Assembly: GCA_003554945.1 (NCBI GenBank)
Contig: PWHN01000024.1
Coordinates: forward strand, 1 to 36,894
DNA from: a bacterium
GTDB taxonomy: Bacteria > T1Sed10-126
DNA length: 36,894 nucleotides
Direction: 5' to 3'
Below the pieces are notes generated by a model. The model did no database searches and was not told the origin of the DNA. It worked only from the letters and a program-made list of their open reading frames with translations. Below are positions 1-24,052 of this stretch, one piece after another (the first letter of the stretch is position 1; every line of letters starts with the position of its first letter). The translations under genes and the position numbers were made by a program.

Positions 1-108
1 CGGCTGATAAACGAACCCTATGTTCCGATTCCACCGGAGGCAGATTGGGACTGTTCTATTACCCACGACGGCGGTATTGCCGTGGCAACGGCCGCTTGTG
101 TGTGGGGG

Positions 109-270
109 GTGTAGCGCGGGGCGTATGGCGCGGGGCGCGGGGCGCAGAGCGCTTGGCGTCCACGTCAAGGTCGAACGCGGGGCGTATGGAGCGGGGCGCG
201 GGGAGCTTGGCGCGGGGCGCAGAGTGCTGAGCGTAAAAAACCGCCGAGCGCGGGGCGTTAACGTCAAAAT
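109..270. repeat. GC-rich 7-bp-period repeat array, left flank of the four-helix-bundle gene
   Basis: The stretch reads as successive degenerate heptamers of the form GGCGCNN (for example GGCGCGG, GGCGTAT, GGCGCAG, GGCGCTT) and ends in a GTTAACGTCAA motif. The same words recur at 746-960, 3939-4000, 6141-6160 and 6298-6340. Open frames cross this segment in several frames and on both strands only because the repeat lacks stop codons; they have no family resemblance and are not called as genes. Bases 1-108 hold nothing I can assign. Bases 271-369 are AT-richer and carry the ribosome-binding site of the next gene. Confidence 0.8.
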
Positions 271-369
271 CCGGAATAGTTTTAAGTTCAGAAATCAAAG
301 CCATGATCGTGAAACGATGTGATTAGAGAACAGATCAGGATTAAACAAAACTTTTTAGGGAGATCTCAA

Positions 370-732
370 ATGCAAGATAAGCCGTTTCGGTTTATGAAAT
401 TAGAGATTTGGGAAATGGCAATAAGCATAGGCGACAATCTATATGACATAGCTGAGAAACTTGAACAAAAGAAAAAGTATAAATTTGCCGAACAGCTCAA
501 CGGAGCATCCCTGTCCATATCAAACAATATCGCAGAAGGGGCTGGCTGTAGCAGTGACAGAGAATTCAGTCGCTTTTTAGGTATTGCCAGACGTTCTATT
601 TTTGAAAACGTAAATATGCTTACAGTTTTCCATAGACGCGGATTAATAGACACTGATACATGTGATGAACTTATAGAAGAACTTGATCACTTATCACGAC
701 AAATTTCAAATTTTCAAAAAAGTTTGCGATAA
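370..732 (+). CDS. four helix bundle protein (23S rRNA intervening-sequence protein family)
   Basis: This 120-residue protein has the usual length of the 23S-IVP/four-helix-bundle family. Members are encoded inside intervening sequences of 23S rRNA genes in some bacteria and as free-standing genes in many others; their molecular role is not established. Family features visible are an N-terminal LEIWEMAISIGDNLYDI helix, the central SISNNIAEGAG motif (around residues 48-60) and the EFSRFLGIARRSIFE helix. I chose the ATG at 370 because AGGGAG lies 6-8 bases upstream and the family starts there; an in-frame extension to 319 is unlikely. The gene is clearly AT-richer than the GC repeats on both sides, which suggests that gene and repeats have different origins. 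It stands alone with no operon partner. Confidence 0.85.
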   Translation: MQDKPFRFMKLEIWEMAISIGDNLYDIAEKLEQKKKYKFAEQLNGASLSISNNIAEGAGCSSDREFSRFLGIARRSIFENVNMLTVFHRRGLIDTDTCDELIEELDHLSRQISNFQKSLR

Positions 733-745
733 GGATGAACTATAG

Positions 746-960
746 TGGGGCGCGGGGTGCTGAGCGCGGAGCGCGGGGCGCAGAGCGCAGGGCGTTAACG
801 TCAAGGTCAAGGTGGGGCGCTTGGCGCGGGGCGTATGGCGCGGGGCGCTTGGTGCTGGGCGCAGAGTGCTGGGCGTAAAAAATCGCAGGGCGCGGGGTGC
901 TGAGCGCGGAGCGCGGGGCGCAGAGCGCAGGGCGTTAACGTCAAGTTCAAGCGCTTGACA
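746..960. repeat. GC-rich 7-bp-period repeat array containing a 58-bp exact direct repeat
   Basis: GGCGCNN-type heptamers continue on the right of the four-helix-bundle gene. Bases 748-805 and 888-945 are identical over 58 positions (140-bp offset), each ending in GGCGTTAACGTCAAG. A TCAAGG hexamer follows each copy. Bases 961-1048 are AT-richer and hold nothing I recognise. A reverse-strand piece of the same GC repeat lies at 1118-1152. Confidence 0.85.
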
Positions 961-1048
961 TCAACGTCAAGGTCAAAAGCGAAAACCAAATGAATCAAGA
1001 GCGAAAAGTAGTTTAAAACCGAGAAATGCAATTGAACTGGAGAGGTTG

Positions 1049-1168
1049 ATGATGAGCGAAGATGGATATCTTAAGGCGAGGCAAGATGAGCAAGTGTTTT
1101 CACAGGGGTTTACGGGCTTGTCGCTCTGCGCCCGGCGCCCTGCTCCCCGCTTAAAAAAGGTGATATGA
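1049..1168 (+). CDS. possible 39-residue ORF abutting nnr
   Basis: An ATG at 1049 (GAGAGG 3-8 bases upstream) opens a 39-codon frame whose TGA (1166-1168) directly abuts the nnr ATG at 1169. The first 20 residues are ordinary and hydrophilic. The last third is translated from a reverse-oriented piece of the GC heptamer repeat (1118-1152), giving an Arg/Pro/Ala-rich tail. I recognise no family. It may be a repeat-damaged gene remnant, a short coupling ORF for nnr, or chance. Confidence 0.25.
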   Translation: MMSEDGYLKARQDEQVFSQGFTGLSLCARRPAPRLKKVI

Positions 1169-2773
1169 ATGAGATTTACTACTGCTGAGCGGATGGCTAA
1201 GATAGACCGTGAAGCTATTGACGGTCATCAGATAGCAGAAGCAGCTCTGATGGAGACCGCGGGTCAATTAACCGCCCGCCACGCTCGCAACTGGTTTTTG
1301 GCCGAGGAGCGACGCGACGGCGTGGTTGTTCTCTGCGGTAAAGGACACAACGGTGCTGACGGCATGGTTGCCGCCCGCTGGTTGGCCAAATGGGGCTATC
1401 ACCTGCACGTGGTACTCGTGGCTGACGAAGAAGAACTGAGTGAGATGGGCCAGAAACAGCTCGTCTCGCTACACAAGGATAAATCCATACAGGTGACCAA
1501 ATACGAATCCGGCGAGGTTTTGCCCGGCGCCGACCTTTATATCGATGCTCTGCTGGGCACCGGACTAAACGGTGACCCCCGCGAACCGTATACTGAGATA
1601 ATAGACCGGCTGAATCGCAAGCCTCAACCGGTGGTCAGCGTCGATATTCCAAGCGGCCTCTGCGGTGACTACCACATGCCCTACTCTCCCTGCGTCGATG
1701 CCGATTTAACCGTTACTTTTGGCTTACCAAAATTAGGTTCCCTGCTTGAACCGGGCTATACACGGGCGGGCAAGCTGGTTGTCCAGGAGTTAGGTTTTCC
1801 CGAAGAAACCTACCGCAAACTGGCCGGACCCTGTCACCTCATCACTCCTTTCGACGCTTTTGAGTTTTTACCGCAGCGGCGGGCGACCGACCACAAGGGG
1901 ACCTCGGGACGCGTGATGCTGGTGGCTGGCAGTAAAAATTACCCGGGGGCGGCTTTTCTCACTGCTAATGCGGCCTCGCGTGCCGGCGCAGGTTTAGTAA
2001 GCATCATTGGACCGGAAAAGCTATCCGAAAACCAGACCGCCGGGGAACGTGACCTTATCTTTTCCGAAACACAGCAAGAGCTTTTAGAAGAAAAATTAGA
2101 AAGTGAAGATTTTCTCAACTTTTTAAACAAACAGCACGCCCTGATTATTGGTCCGGGTCTGGGACGGTCGCCAAAAAAGGCAAAACTACTGAAACAACTT
2201 CTCCCCCGTATCAGTCAACCGGCCGTTATCGACGCCGACGGTTTGAACAACCTCAAAGGGCAACTTGAGCTGCTCAAACAGCTCGACAGATCGGTATTGA
2301 CACCGCATCCGGGCGAGCTGGCCCGACTGCTTGACCGCGGTATAAATTACGTGCTCAGCAAGCCGCTGGAGAGCGCCCAAAAACTGGTTGATTTAAGTGG
2401 CCAGACAGTGGTGCTAAAAACCTCGCGGCCTATCGTTGTGCACCCCGACGAGAGCTACAGTATCAACGTCAGCGGCTCAGCGGCACTGGCCAAGGCGGGC
2501 AGCGGTGACGTTTTGAGCGGTTTCATTGGTGCATTACTTGGTGCAGGTCTCAATCCCGGGCCAGCGGCAACCCTGGCCTGCTACCTGCACGGAGCCGCCG
2601 GACGCCACGCTGCCAGCAAATCAACCGAGCTGGCCGTGCGAGCAGAAGACGTTATCAACGGGCTGCCGGCGGTGCTTAAAAAACTGCATACGGGACAGAT
2701 GCCCGACTGGTTTCCAATTCAGTTTGAATCCCACTCCCCGGAGACTCTACGTTGGCATCCGTTCGCGAGTTAA
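1169..2773 (+). CDS. nnr: bifunctional NAD(P)H-hydrate epimerase / ADP-dependent NAD(P)H-hydrate dehydratase
   Basis: This 534-residue cytosolic enzyme repairs hydrated NADH and NADPH. The N-terminal YjeF_N domain (about 1-215) epimerises the R and S hydrates. The C-terminal carbohydrate-kinase-like domain (about 225-515) dehydrates S-NAD(P)HX using ADP. Visible motifs are GKGHNGADG (57-65), DALLGTGLNG (126-135) and SVDIPSGLCGD (157-167) in the epimerase half. The dehydratase half shows HKGTSGRVMLVAGS (242-255), IIGPGLGR (326-333), IDADGLNNL (354-362), TPHPGE (378-383) and the GSGD nucleotide motif (444-447). The length is normal for the fused form. The start is the ATG at 1169, with AAGGTGAT just upstream. 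The 3' end overlaps alr by 22 bases, so the two are probably co-translated. Confidence 0.95.
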   Translation: MRFTTAERMAKIDREAIDGHQIAEAALMETAGQLTARHARNWFLAEERRDGVVVLCGKGHNGADGMVAARWLAKWGYHLHVVLVADEEELSEMGQKQLVSLHKDKSIQVTKYESGEVLPGADLYIDALLGTGLNGDPREPYTEIIDRLNRKPQPVVSVDIPSGLCGDYHMPYSPCVDADLTVTFGLPKLGSLLEPGYTRAGKLVVQELGFPEETYRKLAGPCHLITPFDAFEFLPQRRATDHKGTSGRVMLVAGSKNYPGAAFLTANAASRAGAGLVSIIGPEKLSENQTAGERDLIFSETQQELLEEKLESEDFLNFLNKQHALIIGPGLGRSPKKAKLLKQLLPRISQPAVIDADGLNNLKGQLELLKQLDRSVLTPHPGELARLLDRGINYVLSKPLESAQKLVDLSGQTVVLKTSRPIVVHPDESYSINVSGSAALAKAGSGDVLSGFIGALLGAGLNPGPAATLACYLHGAAGRHAASKSTELAVRAEDVINGLPAVLKKLHTGQMPDWFPIQFESHSPETLRWHPFAS

Positions 2774-3939
2774 CTGACCCCCGCCCACGTTCCTGCTGGG
2801 TCGAGGTGGACCTGGAGGCCCTGGAACACAACTGCCGCGAAATGCAAAAGCAGATCCCGACCGGGGGAGAAATGCTGGCGGTTGTAAAAGCCGAAGCCTA
2901 CGGCCACGGCGCCGCTATGGTCAGCCGGACGCTGAGTAAACTTGGTGTTAGTTATTTTGGTGTGGCGACGCTCGAAGAGGCATTAAAACTACGGGAGTTC
3001 GGAATTGACGACCGCCTGCTGATTATGGGTCATACGACGACATTTAACGCCGAAGAGATGGTCCGGGCGGATTTAACTCCGATGATCTTTTCCTACCGGA
3101 TGCTAAATGCACTTAACGAAGCCGGAGAAAAATTGAACCGGAAAGCAAACATCCATCTAAAAATTGACACGGGAATGGGCCGGCTGGGATTACGACCGGA
3201 AGCGGTGGAAGACTATATTGGCGAACTGAAGAAAAGAGCTCATGTTAACCTTGAGGGAGTGGCTACACACTTCGCCTGCGCCGGTGAGGACGAGAGCTAC
3301 ACTGAGCAACAACGCAAAGAATTTTTACAGGTTAAAAAAATCATTGAAGCGACGGGAGTTGAACCCTATTACTGGCACAGCAGCAACTCGGCGGCAATAC
3401 TCTCTGACAACCTCGTATGTGAAGAGGATAACCTCTTTCGCCCCGGGATAACGCTCTATGGCTACCCACCCAACGATAAAGTTAAAATACCGGATTTGAA
3501 GCCGGTTATGTCACTTAAAAGTATGCTGGCCGACTACAAGAAACTGCCGGCCGGTGTGGGCATAAGTTATGGCCGAACCTTCACGCCGGAAGAGCCGACG
3601 TATATTGGCGTAATCCCACTGGGCTATGCGGACGGCTATCCGCGCGAATACAGCGACCTGGCTTACGTTTTAAAAGGTGGCCAAAGGAAACCGGTCCGGG
3701 GCCGGGTCTGTATGGATATGACTGTGATTGAATTGGATGAGGACGACGATCCTGAGGAGCCGGTAACGCTACTTGGCGCCGAAGGTGGGGAAGAGCTCTG
3801 GGCCGGCAAACTGGCCGAATGGAGCGATACTATAACCTACGAAGTCCTCTCGCGGTTGAGCCGGCGACTGCCGCGAGTCTACCGGCGGAAGGGGGAGCTG
3901 GTGGCGATCAAGACGGAGCGGAAGGTGCATTTGTTGTAG
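2752..3939 (+). CDS. alr: alanine racemase
   Basis: A 395-residue PLP-dependent racemase that converts L-alanine to D-alanine for peptidoglycan. The PLP lysine is K46 in VVKAEAYGHG; the opposing catalytic tyrosine is Y273 in GISYGRTF. The C-terminal domain shows RPGITLYGY (230-238) and GRVCMDMTVIEL (317-328), both typical of Alr. The only plausible start is a TTG at 2752 inside the end of nnr, placing the conserved WVEVDLEALEHN strand at residues 16-27, as in other family members. The nnr-alr pairing is common in bacteria. The gene runs directly into a GC-repeat region at 3940. Confidence 0.96.
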   Translation: MASVRELTDPRPRSCWVEVDLEALEHNCREMQKQIPTGGEMLAVVKAEAYGHGAAMVSRTLSKLGVSYFGVATLEEALKLREFGIDDRLLIMGHTTTFNAEEMVRADLTPMIFSYRMLNALNEAGEKLNRKANIHLKIDTGMGRLGLRPEAVEDYIGELKKRAHVNLEGVATHFACAGEDESYTEQQRKEFLQVKKIIEATGVEPYYWHSSNSAAILSDNLVCEEDNLFRPGITLYGYPPNDKVKIPDLKPVMSLKSMLADYKKLPAGVGISYGRTFTPEEPTYIGVIPLGYADGYPREYSDLAYVLKGGQRKPVRGRVCMDMTVIELDEDDDPEEPVTLLGAEGGEELWAGKLAEWSDTITYEVLSRLSRRLPRVYRRKGELVAIKTERKVHLL

Positions 3940-4382
3940 CGGGGCGTATGGCGCGGAGCGCTGGAGGCAGGGCGCGGGGAGCTGGGCGCTTGGCGTTAAC
4001 TTCAAGTGCAAGATCCAAGTCAAGGTCAAAGTCGCTGGATTGCCCGGTTAAGCCGGGCAATGACGAGCGGGAGGTCAAAAACAAAAAACACGGAGGTCAA
4101 AATCATAAACATGGATTGCGGATCGTGGTCCGCAATGACGAGCGAGAGGTCAAGAGCGAGAAACGCAAAGGCGCAAAAGAAAGTGCGGGGAGCGAAACGT
4201 CGATGGGGCGGTGGGGCGATATTGCGAGGAACGAAGATGCGAGAAGCGAGGTTGCGAGGAGTGAAAGTGCTAAAAGAGCCTCGGGGGTTGGCAGTTTGAC
4301 AGTGGAAAGAGAGACCGTGTGATGGAGAGACGTTTTTTGCGTTTTTGACGCGGCGAACATTTATTTCGGAAGGAGAAGCAAA
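3940..4382. repeat. mosaic intergenic repeat block
   Basis: This 443-bp gap contains several repeats in order. GC heptamers lie at 3940-3995. An ~80-bp unit at 3991-4070 recurs at 6327-6408. Two GGATTG..CAATGACGAG hairpins sit at 4039-4061 and 4115-4136. A GCGA-rich tract follows at about 4190-4265, where GCGAAACGTCGA (4192-4203) and GCGAGAAGCGAGG (4239-4251) recur at 6155-6166 and 6202-6214. ORFs across the block on both strands are repeat translations. The last 60 bases hold the ribosome-binding site of the next gene (GGAAGGAG). Confidence 0.85.
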
Positions 4383-4853
4383 ATGAACAGACGAACAAAA
4401 ACATGGCTGATTATTGGAGTCGACATCATGCTCGTTTTAGCCGTGTACATGTTGTATGTCTACCATCTGCAGCCTCTTCTGGAAAGACCGACCGGACCGG
4501 TGGAAATGACCACGAGACACGAAGGAATTTACTACCGGCTTGAAGCACAACCTCATCCGGAAACCCGGCGGATGTTAATTAAATTTGAAATTAGCAACCC
4601 GCGCGGTGACACGGCCACCGTAGATATACCAGAAGGTGTGCGTATCATGCTTTACGACGGAGCTGAATATATTTTTGCCCAGGAATTAATAGTTCCGCCC
4701 ACAAGCTTTGATCTCGGGCGCGGCGACAAAAAAGACTGGTCCCATCACCTGCGTTATCCACAGCTTGACGTGGCTCAGATTTTTGTCGGCTATTTTATAG
4801 ACGACCGGCGGCAGAAGCAGACGGCCGTGGAATTACCACCACCTGCTGACTGA
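4383..4853 (+). CDS. membrane-anchored protein of unknown function, BsuPI-like extracytoplasmic domain possible
   Basis: A 156-residue protein with a positively charged N-terminus and one hydrophobic segment (about residues 8-28), followed by a soluble, probably extracytoplasmic, domain. The region from about 55 to 125 is rich in beta-strand pattern. Its alternation (a strand, a short NPRGD turn, then an aromatic-containing strand near a DLGRGDKKDW segment) resembles BsuPI-type immunoglobulin-like domains. That is inference from pattern, not a firm match. GGAAGGAG lies 7-9 bases before the ATG. The stop and the thiL start share one base (TGATG), so the two are almost certainly co-transcribed and coupled. 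Confidence 0.7.
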   Translation: MNRRTKTWLIIGVDIMLVLAVYMLYVYHLQPLLERPTGPVEMTTRHEGIYYRLEAQPHPETRRMLIKFEISNPRGDTATVDIPEGVRIMLYDGAEYIFAQELIVPPTSFDLGRGDKKDWSHHLRYPQLDVAQIFVGYFIDDRRQKQTAVELPPPAD

Positions 4854-5797
4854 TGAGTGATTACAGCGAGGAAGAGTTTGTCGATTTTTTGTGCAAGCAT
4901 ACGGTTAAAAACCGGCTGGCCCGGCCGGGCGATGACTGTGCTGTATTCAGTGAGGAGTCGGAGATAAATCTTGTGACGACGGACGCCCTGGTCCGCGAAA
5001 TCCATTACAGCGAAGATTTTACGGCGGAAGAAATTGCAACGAAGCTGGTCGGTGTGAATGTCAGCGACATCGCCGCCATGGGCGGGCAACCGCAAGCCGC
5101 TGTCGTATCCTACAGCGGTCGGAGACGCGCTACAGAGCTGGAAGATATAAGCCGATTTATTCAAGAAGAATTAGCTGAATTTGGAGCTGAGTTGGTTGGT
5201 GGTGACATAACGAAAACACCGAACGACGAAGTTTTCTGTATGACCCTGTTTGGCAGAGCGGGCGAGCATCTCCTGCGCCGAAGTGGTGGACAACCGGGCG
5301 ATTTGCTGGCAGTGAGCGGTCCGTTGGGGGGGGCCCGAGCAGTGCTGGAAAAGAACCCGGAGTCAAAATGGCGGAAGTTGCTTTATTCTATCAAACCAGA
5401 AGTAGAGCTGGGCAGACAGCTTGTTGATGCGGGCGGGCGCTGTGCTATTGACGTAAGCGACGGCCTGATCAAGGATCTGAAACGAATTATGAAGGCCAGT
5501 AGCGTTGGAGCAAAAATTAATCCTGAGTCCATTCCCCTGCATCCGGCAGTCAGCTCACTCTCTGAGACGAAGCAAGAAGCGCTGATTTACGGGTTGACCG
5601 GAGGCGAGGAATACATTCTTTTGAGCGCCATCCCGCCGGCGTTAAAAGACTGGGCTGATGAAGCAGGTTTGAAGATTATCGGAGAGTTAAACGCTGAAAC
5701 AGAAGAGCTAACCTTTGCTCCCCCACTACCGTTTGAGAATGACTTAATTTCTAACGGATGGGATCACTTTAAAACGGGTGAAAATAGAGATGACTGA
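4853..5797 (+). CDS. thiL: thiamine-monophosphate kinase
   Basis: A 314-residue enzyme of the PurM/ThiL ATP-grasp-like fold that phosphorylates thiamine monophosphate to the cofactor thiamine diphosphate. Family motifs seen are GDDCAVF (26-32), TTDALVREIHY (42-52), NVSDIAAMGG (69-78), VGGDITK (115-121) and IDVSDGLIKDL (199-209), including the aspartates that bind magnesium and ATP. The length is typical. It starts one base inside the previous gene's stop and overlaps the following regulator gene by 8 bases. Together with thiI at 29099 it is one of two thiamine-related genes in the window, though thiI also serves tRNA thiolation. Confidence 0.95.
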   Translation: MSDYSEEEFVDFLCKHTVKNRLARPGDDCAVFSEESEINLVTTDALVREIHYSEDFTAEEIATKLVGVNVSDIAAMGGQPQAAVVSYSGRRRATELEDISRFIQEELAEFGAELVGGDITKTPNDEVFCMTLFGRAGEHLLRRSGGQPGDLLAVSGPLGGARAVLEKNPESKWRKLLYSIKPEVELGRQLVDAGGRCAIDVSDGLIKDLKRIMKASSVGAKINPESIPLHPAVSSLSETKQEALIYGLTGGEEYILLSAIPPALKDWADEAGLKIIGELNAETEELTFAPPLPFENDLISNGWDHFKTGENRDD

Positions 5798-6140
5798 GAA
5801 AAATGAGCTGTCAGAACTGCTGAAACAATTCAGAGAAACGGTTGGAGAACCACAAAAAGAGGTGGCGCAGGCGTTGGACATTCCCCCTTCCTCCCTCTCA
5901 TTCTACGAAAGTGGTGAACGGACCCCCCCTTACTCGACACTGATTAAGCTGTTAGATTATTATGGTGGGCGGTTGGCTATAGAGTCAGATTTTGGCAAAT
6001 GGATATTTTCTCACCAAAACGACGGAATCACTCTTGAAAAATTACCTGAAAAAGAAGAATTAGATCTGCTCGCCGGATTAGATAGCGATGAGCGAGAAGA
6101 TCTGATAGCTTATATTCGTCGCCGAAAGCATCGGAGGTAA
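5790..6140 (+). CDS. XRE-family helix-turn-helix regulator
   Basis: A 116-residue protein (counted from the ATG at 5790) with a Cro/CI-type HTH over about residues 8-62. The frame EVAQALDIPPSSLSFYESGER shows the recognition-helix pattern and the conserved YE.G.R ending of the domain. A second part (about 63-116) has a mixed acidic linker and a basic C-terminal helix ending in RRRKHRR. A GTG at 5778 would add four residues; ATG 5790 has a GGGTG about 10 bases upstream and is preferred, but the choice is not certain. It overlaps thiL by 8 bases. The target is unknown. Confidence 0.85.
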   Translation: MTEKNELSELLKQFRETVGEPQKEVAQALDIPPSSLSFYESGERTPPYSTLIKLLDYYGGRLAIESDFGKWIFSHQNDGITLEKLPEKEELDLLAGLDSDEREDLIAYIRRRKHRR

Positions 6141-6660
6141 GCGCAGGGCGCGGGGCGAAACGTCGAGGGGGCGAAAGGGCGAGGAGCGAAGGAGCGACAT
6201 AGCGAGAAGCGAGGGGTCGGAGTTCTCGAAGAGGCGAGCATGCGAACAGGCGAAAGTTCGTGGAAATCAAGGTCAAGAGCAGAGGTGATGGGGCGAAATG
6301 GGGCGGAGCGCGGGGCGCAAGGCGTATGGCGTTAACTTCAAGTGCGCAAGAGCAAAGTCAAGGTCAAAGTCGCTGGATTGCCCGGTCAAGCCGGGCAATG
6401 ACGAACGGAAGTTCAAGAGCAAGTCCCCCCTCACCTGTCTCCTCTCCCCCGGGGGGGAGAGGAGATGATCCGGGAGCGGATCGGTGTCCGCGATGACAAC
6501 CGGTGGGGCGGGCCCGCAAAAGCGAGCGATAGATCAGACTCATAATGACGAGAGTTAGGGCAAACCTACAGTGTCAGTGAAAGCGTTGGGCGATTTCCTT
6601 GTTATTAAGCCAAAAGTACACACCAATACGCCTGAGTTTTCTATCTAATTTCTAAATTAT
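6141..6660. repeat. mosaic intergenic repeat block
   Basis: This 520-bp gap between convergent genes repeats the organisation of 3940-4382: GC heptamers, a GCGA-rich tract (6150-6215), the ~80-bp unit (6327-6408) with its ATTGCCCGG hairpin at 6377-6399, a perfect 12-bp-arm palindrome CTCCTCTCCCCC (6439-6450, partner 6453-6464), and a degenerate hairpin GCGGA..TCCGC at 6476-6491 followed by GATGAC. Bases 6520-6660 are AT-richer and hold nothing I recognise. Confidence 0.85.
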
Positions 6661-19984: not shown

Positions 19985-20104
19985 AAACGTATTAAGCAAA
20001 CGGTAATCGGTGGTTGGTAATGAAATTATGAATACTGAACACCGATTACCGAATACCGGGCTTTACGACCCGCTCTCGGCGCAACGTCCCCCCCGCACTT
20101 ACTG
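19985..20104. repeat. inverted repeat shared with 23925-24050
   Basis: CGGTAATCGGTG (19999-20010 region) pairs with CACCGATTACCG (about 20040-20052). The right arm runs into GGCTTTACGACCCGC, almost the same text that follows the second copy near 24010. It lies between the convergent atpK and sat genes; 19909-19984 is a GCGA-rich tract like those at 4190 and 6150. Confidence 0.65.
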
Positions 20105-23819: not shown

Positions 23820-24052
23820 AGCGTCCCGGCATCATTGCCGGACTTGATCTTACGTTTGTCATTGCGGAAACGTACAACGTCCCAGGGTTCCAATCCCAAT
23901 CCATTTGAAGTTCAGTTAATCAGTAATCGGTGGAGAGCGTGAAACCGGATAATTCGGGAATTGGGCTCGGTTTTGATGTTACTGATTACCGAATAGAGAA
24001 TACCGATTACTGAGCTTTACGCCCCGCGCGACGCTCCCTGCGCCCTGCGATC
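23820..24052. repeat. repeat cluster: hairpin fragments, inverted repeat and reverse GC heptamers
   Basis: A CCGGC/GCCGG hairpin lies at 23826-23841. A reversed copy of the GTTTGTCATTGCGG..ACGTACAACGTCCCAGGG palindrome is at 23856-23888. The CAGTAATCGGT/ACCGATTACTG pair (about 23927-23937 and 24002-24012) encloses a further AAACCG/CGGTTT hairpin. Reverse-oriented GC heptamers (CGCCCCGCGCGACGC and following) are at 24014-24048. The second and fourth parts match the block at 19985-20104. Confidence 0.7.

Follow-up and report, generated by a model that had tools for sequence, protein, structure and literature searches.

In this stretch of DNA, the tandem heptamer arrays probably form the terminal arms of a minimal mobile element or persist from it as solo remnants, and its spread is presumably served by the IVP gene (four-helix-bundle/S23 family) lying between the arms; from sequence comparison, we put the probability of this reading at about 0.7. 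The element consists of a heptamer array, the IVP gene and an inverted heptamer array, spanning about 0.4-0.5 kb. Sequence comparison shows that it enters intergenic DNA together with its arms and that its copies occupy unrelated places. Gene-less versions bearing these arms exist too and have inserted in their turn, in one case within an IVP gene. Every IVP gene carries a motif of its own, and related IVPs have related motifs. The protein, a homolog of the pentameric ring Xcc0516, would recognise its cognate arms, probably in single-stranded or hairpin form, and together with host replication or recombination enzymes would let IVP-bearing and gene-less copies spread, as RAYT does for REPINs.

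The window, meaning the whole 36,894-nucleotide stretch analysed, is one entire contig (C101) of a 2.2-Mb genome in 121 contigs (93.5% complete). It probably holds a single IVP element joined into a compound with a gene-less one from its own family; the remaining arrays would be solo remnants (Table 1). The IVP gene sits in the middle of the interval 109-960, for which an earlier note on this DNA had described the repeats and no such gene. The upstream arm begins immediately 3′ of the stop codon of the preceding gene (111-113), and its unit is best given as GNGCNNN (e.g., GCGCGGG, GCGCAGA, GCGCTTG, GTGCTGA). Two features of the window and its genome count against our reading: the window arms are partly direct and not simply inverted, with inversion confined to the outer pair (114-260 and 1116-1153), and close inverted pairs are few in the window's own genome. 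The IVP loci that lack arrays, the missing catalytic motif and clean target-site duplication, and sites that stay stable over a genus, all described below, weigh against it as well.

Table 1. Array, gene and spacer features of the window
Feature	Position	Strand	Remarks
Upstream heptamer arm, GCGCGGG-type units	114-260	+	Strict core 114-159 and 191-220; arrays scored at 114-159 and ~176-234
IVP/four-helix-bundle gene, intact, 120 aa	370-732	+	PF05635, TIGR02436
Heptamer array, direct orientation	745-796	+	Terminates in GGGCGTTAACGTCAAGG
Heptamer array, direct orientation	812-877	+	
Heptamer array repeating 745-796	884-936	+	Left arm of adjoining gene-less element
Spacer of gene-less element	993-1115 (copy match 993-1150)	+	Two more genome copies
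Closing arm of the compound element, inverted heptamers	1116-1153	-	Before NAD(P)H-hydrate dehydratase gene (1169)
Solo heptamer array	3942-3998	+	3′ of alanine racemase gene
Solo heptamer array	6301-6333	+	
Weak solo heptamer array	24019-24046	-	G-rich strand on minus; seen in sequence, under strict lag threshold
Octamer relatives (GGGCGATG type)	4199-4227, 6169-6197, 6226-6255		

Within the arrays, lag-7 identity was 0.51-0.53 and lag-14 identity 0.51-0.56, against a background of 0.25. Fifty shuffles produced not a single four-unit run. Genome-wide, the four-unit pattern produced 44 matches versus 5 for the reversed control, confirming that the heptamer arrays are real. All three exact occurrences of GGGCGTTAACGTCAA in the genome lie inside this stretch. 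The earlier note had placed arrays at five or more sites in both orientations, which is borne out by the inverted arm, the solo arrays and the weak minus-strand array listed in Table 1, and had described them as staying out of genes, in agreement with the 10 of 14 lag-7 arrays that fall outside ORFs in a 378-kb sample of the genome (84% ORF). The 7-bp peak that it had expected is absent from the whole-window spectrum (0.25) because the arrays make up a small fraction of the window, and emerges in local lag scans (11 segments at lag 7 versus 0-3 at lags 5, 6, 8, 9, 10 and 11). An octamer pattern search returned 20 genome-wide matches versus 0 for its control, indicating a second array class in this genome.

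Other short repeats accompany the arrays. Hexamer runs of the CAAGGT/CAAGTT type come after several heptamer arrays in the window (958-984 and 6344-6372) and are frequent beside arrays elsewhere in the genome. At 20024-20059 and 23979-24006, heptamer-like arrays of another motif (TACCGAA) lie beside GCGC arrays of the minus strand, an arrangement that looks like nesting or compounding of elements.

Copies of the gene-less spacer were recovered at C102:94176-94315 and C102:95733-95888 with 73-78% identity. An automatic close-pair scan of 378 kb of the genome found no inverted and one direct pair, and pattern matches placed opposite-strand arrays 100-130 bp apart on contigs C26 and C102. Arrays of this kind are absent from a single same-family genome that lacks IVP.

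Profile searches assigned the gene between the arms to the 23S_rRNA_IVP/four helix bundle family above the curated cut-offs of both PF05635 (E = 1.6e-26; 93 bits, cut-off 33.8) and TIGR02436 (E = 7.8e-26; 90 bits, cut-off 24), and the Pfam scan detected IVP and no further domain. Its sole PDB relative is 2gsc (Xcc0516; E = 2.8e-10), which forms a homopentameric ring (PMC4990558). The family has no recognised catalytic motif; its role as a mobility factor is one that we infer. The window's genome encodes three more full-length-type IVP copies, one with an internal stop. Two are flanked by arms of other motifs (GTGAAA-type; GGGGGAGT-type octamers), inverted across the two sides, and the third, of the window's motif class, shares 78.6% DNA identity with the window copy over 352-729; beyond the IVP gene, the window and third-copy regions are alike only in the arrays and the gene-less spacer. 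A longer IVP-like protein of ~249 aa (L005, G000:C117:55137-55349) has flanks without heptamer arms. Phage records gave no match to the one IVP searched.

The association between IVP genes and arrays extends across phyla. We analysed 121 IVP loci (4 from the window's genome, 40 from further genomes, and 77 from Bacteroidota, Verrucomicrobiota, Planctomycetota, Omnitrophota, Nitrospirota and others), calling an array wherever a 28-bp segment in the 200-bp flanks had at least 20 identities at lag 7. Such arrays occurred in 43.6% of IVP flanks versus 9.5% of 273 other intergenic segments from the same loci, and in 2.0% of 2,504 farther segments. At lag 8 the rates were 7.4% of IVP flanks versus 0.8%, and lags 4-6 and 9-13 all remained at or below 0.8%. 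Of 119 loci, 32, roughly a quarter, lacked an array above the strict threshold. The reverse-complemented downstream flank matched the upstream flank above the 99% null from mismatched pairs at 38 of 121 loci, compared with 16 in direct orientation, and the G-rich strand pointed inward in 81 of 90. Insertion of IVP genes into pre-existing arrays predicts direct flanks and was therefore dropped as a general rule.

Array motif and IVP sequence also covary. One genome (G017) carries seven IVP genes with seven distinct motifs, including TAATGGC, CAAGGCT, TCCTGAG and TGATTGC. Across loci, IVP identity correlated with same-strand heptamer similarity (rho = 0.33, 0 of 500 permutations; opposite strand, rho = 0.01), and the correlation persisted among different-phylum pairs alone (rho = 0.37, 0 of 1,000 permutations; opposite strand, 0.11), also when labels were shuffled within phyla (0 of 1,000). 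In this Mantel test the window motif was entered with the wrong polarity, its downstream arrays being direct, which acts against the correlation. On visual comparison, the GNGC motif of the window is similar to the motifs of the nearest IVP relatives, namely GGCGNNN in Pedobacter and GCGCAAAGAGC in a deltaproteobacterial one. In Pedobacter (L098-L116) and Mucilaginibacter (L099), IVP occupies one kept site before a clpP-like gene (tig-clpP in Pedobacter), where GGCGNNN arms are retained across many Pedobacter species with differing variable bases; this IVP appears stable over the genus and is perhaps domesticated.

Occupied and empty sites in Nostocales plasmids bear directly on mobility. At site B, a gene junction that measures 3 bp in four plasmids contains arm, IVP gene and inverted arm in three others. 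At site A, two plasmids are empty, two carry the IVP element and a fifth carries a gene-less inverted-array element. Site C is the junction of nrdB and nrdA, where Calothrix has no insert and Nostoc edaphicum has an IVP element. The arms always lie within the inserted segment. These comparisons show that arm, IVP gene and inverted arm insert as one unit at all three sites. The site-B element alone (~419 bp, 78-81% identity) was also found at unrelated sites in Aulosira, Trichormus and Scytonema. The nrdB-nrdA element of Nostoc edaphicum (L342) is on a plasmid, and another IVP element lies between cas6 and cas4 on a Pseudanabaena plasmid (L344).

In one plasmid, the IVP gene itself is interrupted by a 182-bp gene-less element with TTCTGAC-type arms, the rest of the gene being nearly identical to intact copies. 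This 182-bp family occupies 101 places in 43 plasmid records with ends in common, and its predicted folding is far stronger than that of shuffles (z = -9.6). The plasmid comparisons thus show mobility, as read from sequence, for the gene-bearing and the gene-less unit alike, the IVP being its presumed mobility factor. No clean target-site duplication was established at the compared sites: TTCTA flanks site B as an apparent duplication found only there and is also similar to the arm unit, and the insertion into the IVP gene has none.

Gene-less inverted pairs also occur in G017, where 797 kb contained 18 inverted close array pairs and one direct pair. By gap length, 12 of the inverted pairs are gene-less (48-128 bp), five span 423-477 bp (four enclosing an IVP gene, the fifth a GxxExxY gene), and one spans 251 bp. 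For ten of the 12 gene-less pairs, one of them weak (L281), a motif of an IVP gene resident in G017 fits in matching polarity; none of 200 randomly drawn sets of foreign motifs did as well. TAATGGC arrays occupy more than a dozen G017 sites and are found in none of three same-family genomes, a comparison that yielded no empty site, synteny being broken. Hairpins of some G017 elements pair heptamer with heptamer, with a mismatch about every seven bases. Variation was clustered in particular heptamer columns (957 versus 841 ± 18), a figure that the choice of segments may inflate and to which we attach little weight.

Two further repeat types were seen. A separate dispersed repeat of ~70 bp (query 1726-1794) occurs at L292:9625-9693 and about 18 other places in G017. 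At L217, L219, L220, L222, L224, L227, L229 and L231, GxxExxY (PDDEXK_3, PF13366) genes lie between inverted short-repeat arms with 8-9-bp units such as CACAGAGA or GCAAAGAC, an arrangement suggesting that elements of this type also carry another protein family.

An RNA-level selfish insert is an unlikely alternative: the arms would pair in the transcript as RNA stems rather than serve as DNA ends, and RNase III or a similar enzyme would excise or insulate the IVP segment. Its model is the rRNA intervening sequence (IVS), which likewise carries a protein of this family and has inverted repeats at its ends (a 28-bp stem) cut by RNase III (PMC4990558), and it accommodates both complementary arms of fixed polarity relative to the gene and inserts within gene clusters (nrdB/nrdA, cas6/cas4). 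However, it leaves unexplained the tandem heptamers with element-specific motifs and the many gene-less copies, and the nrdB/nrdA IVP lies on the strand opposite to those genes. Insertion also occurs outside rRNA: 20 IVP loci contained only tRNAs and no rRNA, and an Rfam search of window 1-6600, arrays included, gave no match.

It is quite unlikely that the IVP is a passenger, riding along or regulating while another transposase or recombinase recognises the arms and moves the elements in trans. The lack of a known catalytic site in IVP would suit such a role, and PDDEXK_3 (GxxExxY) genes in a similar inverted-array layout with other repeats imply that different genes can fill the slot. Against it, motif and IVP identity vary together, and a single enzyme serving all elements would not give each of the seven G017 IVP genes a motif of its own.

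Ordinary replication-slippage microsatellites lying near IVP genes by chance would fit the tandem structure, degenerate units and intergenic bias, and are nevertheless very improbable, being already contradicted by the occupied and empty sites. The earlier note had offered a DNA-level role or a slippage product; the former gains support because the arrays avoid genes and form the ends of inserted DNA units, whereas slippage alone does not, as it leaves unexplained the inverted pairing (18:1 in G017) around one protein family, the motif particular to each IVP gene, the cross-phylum covariation and the site comparisons. Slippage may set copy number within an arm.

A mobile unit with IVP as its cognate partner resembles REPIN/RAYT (TnpA-REP) systems, in which a small protein gene is likewise flanked by inverted short repeats, protein and repeat covary, and gene-less inverted pairs with the cognate motif are scattered between genes, as seen here in G017 and in the gene-less copies of the window's genome. 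However, the partner is a four-helix-bundle IVP and not an HUH/Y1 (IS200/IS605-like) transposase, and the repeats are tandem degenerate heptamers, whereas REPs are single palindromes. With rRNA IVSs bearing S23/IVP ORFs, the elements share the protein family and an insert with complementary ends (PMC4990558), found here above the null in the 38 loci noted above; unlike IVSs, they lie between protein genes, end in heptamer arrays and are multi-copy with gene-less derivatives. The element thus falls outside REPIN/RAYT, having no HUH transposase, and outside IVSs, not being in rRNA; it would work like the former and share protein and complementary ends with the latter.

MITEs are comparable in being short and gene-less, with inverted repeats at their termini and an autonomous partner that is presumed. 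The 182-bp family is likewise short, non-coding and multi-copy, with inverted ends and empty sites, as seen from the IVP-gene insertion against uninterrupted copies; the present elements differ in their tandem heptamer ends, in a partner that is not a known transposase and in the lack of clean target duplication. Avd proteins of diversity-generating retroelements form a related four-helix-bundle family. The window's genome (93.5% complete) differs from such retroelements in having no match to the reverse transcriptase profile PF00078, and reverse-transcriptase-based copying encoded by it was dropped on that ground.

Degenerate intergenic heptamers have been described in Xanthomonas (GGGAATC) and Nostoc (GGGGATT), with 70-75 convergent inverted pairs in Xanthomonas, and were read as G-quadruplex sequences (PMC4692102). 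They resemble the present arrays, and Xcc0516 is itself an IVP of X. campestris; searching the text of the heptamer paper gave no mention of IVP (PMC4692102). Heptamer repeats of this kind and IVP-bearing IVSs with inverted ends were thus known separately; no paper connecting IVP genes with heptamer arrays was found in the open-access literature, most subscription papers lying outside the search.

Whether IVP (four-helix-bundle/S23) proteins act generally as mobility or maintenance factors of phylum-spanning minimal transposable elements with tandem-heptamer ends is, in our judgement, evenly balanced. The cyanobacterial, Xanthomonas and many metagenome-genome heptamer repeats would then be ends and gene-less derivatives of such elements, and rRNA intervening sequences would be the special case of insertion in rRNA. 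If true, this would give context and function to a very common "hypothetical" family, account for short repeats that are widespread between genes in several phyla, and define a type of transposable element that lacks a recognised transposase and ends in tandem arrays matched to a single protein. The model also renders the old question of the role of the IVS protein testable by binding and mobility assays.
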